A stretch of DNA of 43,786 bases from Campylobacteraceae bacterium. GTDB lineage: Bacteria > Campylobacterota > Campylobacteria > Campylobacterales > Sulfurovaceae. The stretch lies in contig JALVTH010000023.1 of NCBI GenBank assembly GCA_027036015.1, forward strand, positions 1-43,786, in the 5' to 3' direction. This document shows, one piece after another, positions 2,519-22,750 of this stretch. Position numbers and translations under genes: made by a program. The notes beneath the pieces were generated by a model that saw only the letters and a list, made by a program, of their open reading frames with translations, ran no database searches and was not told the origin of the DNA. Numbering within the stretch: the stretch's first letter is position 1; each line of letters begins with the position of its first letter.

Positions 2519-3195
2519 TATGCAAACTCCGCTAAGGTTTTATCGATTTTTTGAGCAATTGCTTCATCAAAAAGTGCAATTGTTGGAATGAGCCATTCAA
2601 GATAGAATCTATCTTTTTTATCTTTATTTTTTCCAAAATATTGTAATGTAATTCTTCCAAAGCCCATCTTTTTTTCAATTTTTTTTGCTTCTCTTAAAAA
2701 TCTTCTTGGAAGTGGAGGAAGCTCTTCAAAACTTTTTGGAATACCTTCTTTGCTCTCACCTTTAACTAAATTTGTAGCACTGCCTATACTTTTGATACTT
2801 TCAATAATTTTTGGGAGTTTATGCTTTTTTAAAAAGGCCAAAAGCACTTTTGCTGTTTCTATTTTTAAGATCTCTTCTTCTGTCTCATCTTTTAATAGAT
2901 TAACGATTAAATAGGCTTTTCCTTCTATCATAGAAATATGAGCTAAAAGTTTGGTGTTTTTAGGAAGTTCTTTTAAGATAGAGACAACTTCATATTCATT
3001 TTCTTCATGGCTAAATATATCTCCTTCTTTTTTATTGGCAAAACTAAAATAGCACTCTTTCTTATTTTTTTTGCCAAAAATTAAATCAAAACCCCACTTT
3101 TTTAAGTGTTTTAATTTAAACTCTCTTGCCTTTTGAGGCTCTCCAAGGGTTTCAAACACAAGCGTGTTACTTAAGATTGCTTCTTTATTTTGCAT
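2518..3195 (-). CDS. Unknown protein downstream of csx20
   Basis: A 225-residue, Lys/Glu-rich soluble protein that I do not recognise. It has no signal peptide or transmembrane helix. The C-terminal half carries a basic proline-containing stretch (ELPPLPRRFLREAKKIEKKMGFGR, written here only as its core features around residues 157-180) that could bind nucleic acid. The ATG at 3195 is preceded by an AAAGGATAG ribosome site nearly identical to that of csx20, and a TATAAT at 3224-3219 could give it its own promoter. It overlaps the next gene by one base (TAATG). The gene lies 82 bases downstream of csx20 on the same strand. A role in the type III CRISPR response is a guess from position. Confidence 0.75.
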   Translation of the reverse strand: MQNKEAILSNTLVFETLGEPQKAREFKLKHLKKWGFDLIFGKKNKKECYFSFANKKEGDIFSHEENEYEVVSILKELPKNTKLLAHISMIEGKAYLIVNLLKDETEEEILKIETAKVLLAFLKKHKLPKIIESIKSIGSATNLVKGESKEGIPKSFEELPPLPRRFLREAKKIEKKMGFGRITLQYFGKNKDKKDRFYLEWLIPTIALFDEAIAQKIDKTLAEFA

Positions 3196-3277
3196 TGACT
3201 ATCCTTTTTTTAGGAGCAATTATAAAAAGAAAAATAGACAAAAGAAGCAATCTAAGTTGCAAATTGAGCATATTCGA

Positions 3278-20193: not shown

Positions 20194-20937
20194 ATGAAAT
20201 TTAGTGGAAAAAATGTTTTAGTAACTGGAGCAAGCAGAGGAATTGGGGCTGAGATTGCAAAGGTGCTTGGCTCATATGGCTTGAAAGTATGGATTAATTT
20301 TAGAAGTAATGAAGCAAAAGCGCTTGAAGTAAAAGAAGCAATTGTAAAAAAAGGAGGCGAGGCTGAGGTTATTGGCTTTGATGTAAGCAATGAGGAAGCT
20401 TTTGTTAATGCAATAAAAGATATTGTTAAGATAGATGGAGAGTTAAGCTATTTGGTTAATAATGCTGGTATTACTAAAGATAAGCTTGCTATGCGTATGA
20501 AAGTTGAAGATTTTATGGAAGTTATTGAAGCAAATTTAAAATCAGCTTTTATCGGGTGTCGTGAAGCGCTCAAAGTTATGGGCAAAAAGCGTTTTGGAAG
20601 CGTTGTAAATGTTGCTAGCATTGTAGGTGAAACAGGTAATGCAGGTCAGACAAACTACTCTGCAAGTAAAGGTGGGCTTATTGCAATGACAAAATCTTTT
20701 GCCAAAGAGGCAGCCCCAAGAGGCATTCGTTTTAATAGTATTACACCAGGATTTATTGCTACAGATATGACAGAAATTTTAAGCGAAGAGGTAAAAGAAA
20801 ACTTTATTAAAAATATTCCACTTGGGCGCTTTGGTGAAGCAAAAGAGGTAGCAGATGCCGTAGCCTTTTTACTTAGTGATCATGCCAGTTACATTACGGG
20901 AGAGACGCTTAAAGTTAATGGCGGAATGTATATGTAA
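20194..20937 (+). CDS. fabG: 3-oxoacyl-ACP reductase
   Basis: A 247-residue short-chain dehydrogenase that reduces 3-oxoacyl-ACP with NADPH in fatty acid elongation. The cofactor loop TGASRGIGAEIA is at about residues 10-21 and NNAGIT at about 89-94. The catalytic Ser is in VNVASIVGE near 139, with YSASKGG (Tyr and Lys) near 152-158 and ITPGFIATDMT near 184. It ends with the usual NGGMYM. It precedes the response regulator by 9 bases and lies upstream of acpP, fabF and accA, so the run is a fatty-acid synthesis cluster interrupted by two signalling genes. Confidence 0.96.
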   Translation: MKFSGKNVLVTGASRGIGAEIAKVLGSYGLKVWINFRSNEAKALEVKEAIVKKGGEAEVIGFDVSNEEAFVNAIKDIVKIDGELSYLVNNAGITKDKLAMRMKVEDFMEVIEANLKSAFIGCREALKVMGKKRFGSVVNVASIVGETGNAGQTNYSASKGGLIAMTKSFAKEAAPRGIRFNSITPGFIATDMTEILSEEVKENFIKNIPLGRFGEAKEVADAVAFLLSDHASYITGETLKVNGGMYM

Positions 20938-20946
20938 AGGTAGGAG

Positions 20947-21603
20947 TTGGCTAAAATTTTATTACTTGAAGACGATCGATTATTTAGCCAAAGTTTGAGT
21001 GATTTTTTAGAAGAAGAGGGTTTTGAAGTGGTGTGCGCTTATGATCCTTTAAGTGCATACGAAATAGCTTATAATCAGAATTTTGATTTATATCTTTTTG
21101 ACATTAATTTACCTTTTGAAAATGGACTTATTGCATTAGAGCAGTTAAGAAAAGCAGATGATTTTACTCCTGCAATTTTTATTACTTCAAGAGAGGATCA
21201 AGAATCACTTTATAAAGGTTTTTTAGTTGGAGCTGATGATTATTTAAAAAAGCCTTTTGATTTAGAAGAGTTGCTTTTAAGAATGAAAGCGCTTTTAAAG
21301 CGCCATGAAAAAAGAGAAAAAGTAGTGCTTAAAGAGTTTGTTTTAGATAAAAGTAGAAAAGATCTCTTTTTTAAAGATAAACCTTTAAATCTTAGTTTAA
21401 AACTTTATAAATTGCTTGAACTTTTAATCAATAAAGCTCCAAATGCAGTAAGTTATGGCGAAATTTATGAAACGCTTTGGCCAGAAGAAGAACCAAATAA
21501 CGCGGCAATGAGAGTATATATTACGAAATTAAAAAAATATTTTCCAAAAGCTATTAAAACAATAAGAAATTATGGTTATAGTTTTGATAAAAGTTTAGTA
21601 TAA
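20947..21603 (+). CDS. OmpR-family response regulator
   Basis: A 218-residue two-component response regulator. The receiver domain has the acidic pair EDD (residues 8-10), phospho-acceptor Asp52 in LFDINLP, the Thr/Ser in ITSRE near 79, and Lys in DDYLKKPFD near 101. The C-terminal winged helix (about 125-218) ends with NYGYSF. The start is TTG at 20947, required to keep the conserved AKILLLEDD; an AAAGG ribosome site lies just upstream. Its partner kinase gene, 12 bases downstream, is broken by a stop codon. It may respond to another kinase or work unphosphorylated. A similar pair is at 36997-38830. The target genes are unknown; position suggests but does not show a link with lipid synthesis. 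Confidence 0.9.
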   Translation: MAKILLLEDDRLFSQSLSDFLEEEGFEVVCAYDPLSAYEIAYNQNFDLYLFDINLPFENGLIALEQLRKADDFTPAIFITSREDQESLYKGFLVGADDYLKKPFDLEELLLRMKALLKRHEKREKVVLKEFVLDKSRKDLFFKDKPLNLSLKLYKLLELLINKAPNAVSYGEIYETLWPEEEPNNAAMRVYITKLKKYFPKAIKTIRNYGYSFDKSLV

Positions 21604-21615
21604 AAGTATGTTTTG

Positions 21616-22437
21616 ATGAGAGTTTTTGCAATAGTTCTTTTTTTAGTTACGATTTTTTTACTCTTTTTACTTCATTTTCTTTTATTCAAAGAGGGATTAA
21701 GTTACCAAAGGGCATTTTTTTTCGTTTTTTTTGCCGCACTCTTTATTGCTTATATATTTGTAACACTTTTAATTGAACCACTTAGTAAGCAAAATGAACG
21801 ATTAAAGCATTTAGTAAGAGAAAATTTGCATGAGATTAATTTGCCAATTGCAACGATTGAAGTAAATACAAAACTTTTGTTAAAAGGTGCTAACGAAAAA
21901 GAGAAAAAAAGGATAGAGCGAATTCAACAAGCACTTTTGCGCTTAAAAAGGCAATATGAACTTTTAGCTTACGAAATAAAAAAAGAATATAGCGAAGTTA
22001 AAAAAGAGCGCTTTAATATTAAAGAAGTTATTAAAGAGCGAGTTAAATTTTTTGAGGAGTATGGACATAAGAGGTTTAAGTTAGATATAGAAGAAAAAGA
22101 ACTTTTTTTAGATAAGATTGGATTAGAACAAGTTTTGGATAATTTAATTGAAATTGCCATATAATATTCTCCAACAAACACTCCTATTACAATTAGTTTT
22201 AAAAAGAATAAATTAAGTATCGAAGATAAGGGCAAAGGGATTGAAGAAGAAGCCCTCGTTCAAGTTTTTAATCGCTATTTTCAAGAAGATAGTAGTTTTA
22301 AAGGGGAGGGAATTGGGCTTTTTATCGTAAAAAGATATTGCGATAGGGAGGGAATAGATTTAAAAATTTATACCCAAAAGGGGCAGGGAACGAAAATTGA
22401 GTTGCTTTTTTCGAATTTACATTTTACAAAAGCTTAA
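21616..22437 (+). pseudogene. Sensor histidine kinase split by an in-frame TAA
   Basis: The reading frame gives a 273-codon kinase with two N-terminal transmembrane helices (about 1-22 and 30-52), a short H-box (ENLHEINLPIATIE, His near residue 74), and a dimerisation helix. The N-box LDNLIEIAI is then cut by TAA at 22162-22164. The same frame continues for 90 codons: YSPTNTP, the D-box IEDKGKGIEEEA, an F-box and GEGIGLFIVKRY (G-box), ending at TAA 22435-22437. In relatives the residue at the stop is usually Lys (AIKYS), so one A-to-T change (AAA to TAA) explains it. The upstream part alone (182 residues) would lack ATP-binding boxes. The rest is undamaged, so the event is recent, a sequencing error, or read through. 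Confidence 0.85.
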
Positions 22438-22483
22438 GAGGATTTTTTATACAATTTTATAGCTTTTTTTAACGAATTTTGGC

Positions 22484-22489
22484 TATACT
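22484..22489 (+). promoter_or_regulatory. -10 box of acpP
   Basis: TATACT, preceded by a T-rich stretch and TTTTGGC, lies 28 bases before the acpP ATG. An AAGGAG ribosome site follows at 22505-22510. Confidence 0.5.
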
Positions 22490-22516: not shown

Positions 22517-22750
22517 ATGGCAGTTTTAGATGAAGTTAAAGAAGTTGTAGCAGAGCAACTTGGAGTAAATATTGATGAAATTAAAGAAGACTCTAAGTTT
22601 GCAGAAGATTTGGGTGCAGATAGCTTAGATGTAGTTGAGCTTGTAATGGCACTTGAAGAAAAGTTTGACATTGAAATTCCAGACGAAGAGGCAGAAAAAA
22701 TCCAAACAGTTGGAGATGCTGTAAAATTTATTGAAGAGAAAAAAGCTTAA
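22517..22750 (+). CDS. acpP: Acyl carrier protein
   Basis: A 77-residue acidic four-helix carrier that holds growing acyl chains on 4'-phosphopantetheine. The attachment Ser is in [10 protein letters not shown] near residue 37, and the [14 protein letters not shown] segment before it is standard. The AAGGAG ribosome site is strong and a promoter of its own is likely, matching the high expression expected. Two hairpins follow before fabF. Confidence 0.98.

Follow-up and report, generated by a model that had tools for sequence, protein, structure and literature searches.

A kinase pseudogene beside an intact regulator gene has been described in Bordetella pertussis where risS is disrupted by a frameshift next to an intact OmpR-family risA, whose product depends on a different kinase, RisK, to be fully active (PMC5020355). 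We analysed a similar arrangement on contig JALVTH010000023.1 of a Campylobacteraceae bacterium (Sulfurovaceae; assembly GCA_027036015.1), the whole 43.8 kb contig (43,786 nucleotides) being referred to as the window. Here, a histidine kinase (HK) reading frame at 21616..22437 (+ strand) is interrupted by an in-frame TAA at 22162..22164, downstream of an intact response regulator (RR) gene. The source genome (G000; 1.69 Mb in 79 contigs) is rated 100% complete; its genes and a Campylobacter-type promoter of acpP suggest a Sulfurovum-like member of Campylobacterota. All lesion calls rest on the assembled sequence, and the comparison set holds one genome per species. The two loci are alike in having a kinase pseudogene next to an intact OmpR-family regulator gene, whereas they differ in that the lesion there is a frameshift and RisK feeds the regulator (PMC5020355), and the lesion here is a stop codon together with loss of the N-box asparagine. 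Among the papers listed by literature searches, none dealt with this pair in Sulfurovum-like bacteria or with kinase pseudogenization in Campylobacterota. We consider it probable (roughly 0.78) that the window holds a recently inactivated kinase gene, a recurrent pseudogene in a dispensable two-component pair that leaves the RR as an orphan.

The window kinase resembles the EnvZ, PhoR and HK853 class in its layout of transmembrane (TM) segments, dimerization and histidine phosphotransfer (DHp) domain and catalytic and ATP-binding (CA) domain, in its H-box, and in a HATPase_c domain recognized by profile. It departs from that class in its broken N-box, and its whole family departs in lacking the phosphatase Thr/Asn after the His. 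In the EnvZ N347D mutant the N-box Asn is reportedly the residue changed, as in the window, in a protein said to be full length and to have phosphatase activity; the window kinase, in contrast, is a truncated protein that lacks the phosphatase residue.

Two lesions in the kinase reading frame

The kinase frame starts at ATG 21616 (TTG 21613 is also possible), and the TAA is the sole stop before the final one at 22435..22437, so the frame is open on both sides of the lesion, as the initial annotation had stated. Translated with X in place of the stop, the frame gives a match to HATPase_c (PF02518) with an E value of 1.5e-18 and 67.7 bits, above the cut-off of 26.4, as expected of a histidine kinase. 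The match to HisKA (PF00512) is weak, at 20.2 bits against a cut-off of 26.9, and PhoR is among the best NCBIfam matches, far under its cut-off. H72 and E73 are invariant across 30 sequences. The still-translatable part (21616..22164, +) is 182 codons long if read from the ATG and 183 if read from the TTG, and it contains two hydrophobic segments, a DHp domain with the H-box HEINLP, and the CA domain up to the N-box. The stop sits inside that ATP-site N-box (DNLIEIAI*YS), with the G1, F and G2 boxes after it, which corrects the earlier statement that all ATP-binding boxes follow the TAA. The N-box Asn holds Mg-ATP.

In an alignment of 30 family orthologues, the window copy included, the stop was found to be accompanied by a second change. 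The N-box Asn (residue 180 from the ATG) is replaced by Ile, encoded by ATT at 22153..22155 (+), and the stop falls three codons later at a Lys column (residue 183); all 29 other orthologues, including that of the same-genus genome G011, have Asn and Lys at these positions. Departures were counted by a leave-one-out procedure over columns for which 96% or more of the other sequences agree. The window kinase deviates at 7 of 51 such columns, the stop being one of the seven, while the 29 others deviate at 0–3. With the N-box Asn gone and further conserved columns altered, the sequence indicates a state of two changes rather than one clean change; a single AAA-to-TAA substitution, which the initial annotation had taken to account for the interruption, does not, and a clean single-base accident is rejected. 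The window kinase thus lacks the N-box Asn and an unbroken ATP-binding domain, and it carries an inactivating lesion where its orthologues are intact, as expected of a pseudogene. Having lost the ATP half and the N-box Asn, the product should be incapable of acting as a kinase.

Two other roles for the interrupted frame were considered and rejected. A split kinase made by downstream restart would have to start from the one in-frame ATG, GTG or TTG codon after the stop, a TTG at 22402, near the end of the frame; in-frame ATT, ATC and ATA codons do occur there. The TAA lies within a TATAAT (22160..22165) in the scanner's top-scoring promoter-like match. This was taken as chance, since promoter-like matches in the stop region are fewer than in shuffled sequences (5 against a mean of 7.2) and the hexamer is common in the 32% GC window (63 occurrences, 34 and 29 on the two strands).

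The decay of the kinase is supported as recent because much of the post-stop frame is conserved, 144 other genomes of the family have strong uninterrupted kinase matches and the regulator gene is undamaged; to this extent the very recent loss suggested by the initial annotation holds up. Mean identity of the window kinase to its nine same-genus relatives is 0.56 in the DHp domain, 0.42 in the CA domain before the stop and 0.50 after it, and in all three regions this is the lowest value among the ten copies, although identity has not collapsed. In the TM part, the G004 copy is less conserved than the window copy.

A second break and the fate of the pair in the family

A family search gave an HK match at 1e-40 in 169 of 175 genomes, and a strong match (below 1e-60) in 146 by hand count, among which the G140 match may be a paralogue. 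Within the genus, a close orthologue (E of 1e-57 or lower) is present in 10 of 12 genomes, the remaining two being 82% and 63% complete. An internal stop inside a strong match was found in only two of the 146, G000 and G011, both among the ten same-genus orthologue holders, and the other 144 have strong uninterrupted matches; this count covers stops within the matched part, with frameshifts and stops outside partial matches left out. A third row was flagged in the search, for G151, where the TGA simply closes the frame. Were two breaks scattered at random over 146 copies, the chance of both lying within the ten same-genus copies would be 45/10585, about 0.004, ignoring relatedness. Six of the other kinases flagged with one TAA (L015, L017, L020, L021, L028 and L029) merely extend past their terminal stop. 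A search for the kinase in the contigs of named relatives' genomes gave only three distant matches, and a search of plasmids gave none.

The G011 orthologue has its own in-frame TAA in the ATP lid (G011:C2, about 13673; L012, L043 and L086). It also has Ile at residue 220, where the others have Arg (26 of 28) or Lys (2 of 28), and Trp at residue 256, where 25 of 28 have Gly. The two breaks look like independent events, because the stop sites differ and because, in a tree of HK and RR, G011 pairs with the intact G004 with a support of 100, apart from G000.

The OmpR-type regulator (20947..21603, +, TTG start) is intact, as had been proposed, with both its domains above their cut-offs (Response_reg, 83.7 bits; Trans_reg_C, 44.8 bits) and with D8, D9, D51, T79 and K101 invariant in a six-sequence alignment. 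It is intact in both G000 and G011, and no stop was found inside the RR among the matches listed in the family search.

Across the family the two partners appear to be mostly kept or lost together. A strong HK match is missing from 29 genomes; in 24 of them, among the matches listed, the RR likewise has none better than 1e-62, and six of these 24 are at least 97% complete (G026, G028, G096, G148, G160 and G162). As for the remaining five, the RR match is strong in G146 and G112 (G112 also retains an uninterrupted HK fragment), G098 has part of the RR, and G038 and G044 have a possible paralogue only. Conversely, eight genomes match the HK strongly but show, among the matches listed, nothing better than 1e-62 for the RR (G003, G012, G025, G075, G154, G155, G157 and G171), the RR match of G002 being 1e-63. 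In G002 and G003 the contig ends there, and in G012, G025 and G171 the HK match begins less than 500 bases from the contig start. In G146 (L170; G146:C145, 260–2786), fabG and the RR are followed by an ORF (open reading frame) that does not resemble the kinase and is peptidase-like by eye; no HK was found on this contig, and the G146 regulator appears to be a natural orphan. Since the kinase is separately broken in G011 and neither partner has a strong match in several near-complete relatives, the two-component system looks dispensable.

Weighing the alternatives

The alternative that survives best is that the real kinase is intact, the stop having arisen as an error in sequencing or assembly or representing a variant carried by a minority in a mixed assembly. 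The initial annotation had left sequencing error open; we find it disfavoured, and regard it as unlikely. Against it speak the presence of two distinct changes, three codons from each other, at positions that are invariant elsewhere, the loss of further conserved columns, and the fact that G011 has a break of its own in this gene. As a control on assembly noise, stretches of four same-genus genomes (G000, G011, G007 and G006) were compared by tblastn using ORFs of at least 100 amino acids; a stop was kept if at least 15 columns preceded it and at least 12 followed, at an identity of at least 35% and with no better alignment in another frame. The G000 set comprised 33 stretches, 508 kb of the 1.69 Mb, window included. 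Among its 161 homologue-covered ORFs, no in-frame stop other than that of the kinase passes the filters, which makes random error an unlikely source of it. One frameshift-like break was seen elsewhere in G000 (L075, G000:C5, near 4391).

In G011, the kinase likewise has the only clean single in-frame stop among 159 covered ORFs. Four flagged stops in L099 (G011:C11, about 3076–3208) look like a frame-shifted stretch in a transporter-like gene, and seven others (six in L086, one in L095) lie in alignments that by eye extend upstream of the start. The 67 ORFs covered in G006 gave none that was genuine by eye, the two flagged in L125 appearing antisense-like. G007, with 55 covered ORFs, gave one apparently genuine stop, considered below; of its two other flagged stops, one precedes a start codon (L106) and one is in an antisense-like frame (L112). 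In total, three clean in-frame stops were counted by eye in 442 covered ORFs, and because two of the three fall in the same HK gene, the control argues against random error. The anomalies in L075, L099 and the G007 gene nevertheless give the error explanation some support: single stops do occur in these assemblies.

We think it improbable that selection keeps the truncated, kinase-dead protein as a partner of the RR, its DHp stump acting as a constitutive phosphatase or by sequestering the regulator. Both broken orthologues retain the DHp domain and lose part of the ATP domain, in keeping with such a role. The EnvZ N347D mutant is said, in the title of a cited study, to be kinase-minus/phosphatase-plus. 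One study describes a constitutive phosphatase phenotype for the DHp domain of EnvZ or NtrB alone, and states that the HisKA proteins tested need a Thr or Asn four residues after the His for phosphatase activity (PMC3510030). The phospho-His motif of the present family is HE[IL]N[LI]P or HELAIP (21829..21846 in the window), and all 30 orthologues carry Leu or Ile at this position, as do 17 of the 18 further homologues whose H-box could be read; only the more distant homologue in G140 differs. By this criterion for bifunctional HisKA kinase/phosphatases, the family is predicted to lack HisKA phosphatase activity, and a phosphatase role for the stump is unlikely because the required Thr/Asn is missing. 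Nor does the window DHp domain look preserved by selection, as its conservation is the lowest among the ten copies in the genus. In all likelihood the stump is inert, or at most a regulator binder. We give equally little credence to the proposal that the genus repeatedly sheds the ATP half of the kinase under selection, the DHp stump left in the membrane holding or shielding the fatty-acid-cluster regulator in its unphosphorylated state; if true, the sensor would have been turned into a static anti-regulator.

Stop read-through, another option of the initial annotation, or codon reassignment to give a full-length kinase is consistent with the open frame after the stop but is highly improbable, as the product would still lack the N-box Asn, no other in-frame stop was found in the 161 checked ORFs, and no tRNA with a suppressor anticodon was seen in the 33 stretches, which cover about 30% of the genome.

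Several observations weigh against recent inactivation of a dispensable kinase gene. The post-stop sequence is no less conserved than that just before the stop (0.50 against 0.42). G000 is on a deep branch, and simple divergence may explain part of the seven-column excess. Its terminal branch is 1.66 times as long for HK as for RR, a modest excess over the 1.25 of the tree totals, and seven other copies have higher ratios, mostly on short branches; the ratio for G011 is only 0.82. Finally, the stop in G007 that seems genuine is a single in-frame TAG close to the C-terminal end of a carbonic-anhydrase-like gene (L110, G007:C38, 1741, − strand), a clean stop that speaks for the error explanation.

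Neighbouring genes and likely consequences of the loss

The gene order at the locus is fabG, RR, HK, acpP, fabF, where the names fabG, acpP and fabF are those we presume from the sequences. The RR–HK pair lies behind fabG and, in the window's genus, also in front of acpP. The fabG-like 3-oxoacyl-ACP (acyl carrier protein) reductase gene (20194..20937, +) has copies 77–86% identical upstream of the pair at those of the 29 other orthologous loci where one was found; several others gave no FabG match in the stretch compared. The intact acyl carrier protein gene acpP (22517..22750, +) is 86–90% identical in the eight other same-genus loci that hold it.

Directly upstream of acpP, at 22465..22489 (+), is a TTTTTAACGA-TTTTT-like block ending in TATACT, which is present in all nine same-genus loci compared, window included, with small differences in G003 and G009. 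A consensus promoter scan of the region did not list this block among its matches; we take it to resemble Campylobacter-type sigma-70 promoters. It is likely to be acpP's own promoter and is perhaps also an operator. With this conserved promoter-like block in place, the kinase stop need not silence acpP.

For a recently inactivated kinase, we infer the following course. The window lineage has lost the N-box Asn and gained a stop in the same box, which would abolish autophosphorylation in the cell, and at most a membrane-bound DHp stump would be produced. The RR would be left as an orphan, acting unphosphorylated or through another phosphodonor; the stop would be tolerated with acpP probably under a promoter of its own, and the break in the kinase may be a step toward loss of the system.

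A decaying kinase gene is an ordinary kind of event, and the general picture of bacterial gene decay is unchanged by this case. What the locus offers is a family-conserved, fatty-acid-linked two-component pair that appears to have been caught losing its sensor in two lineages, and it highlights a kinase family apparently without the HisKA phosphatase residue. It would provide a natural test of what the regulator does without its kinase.
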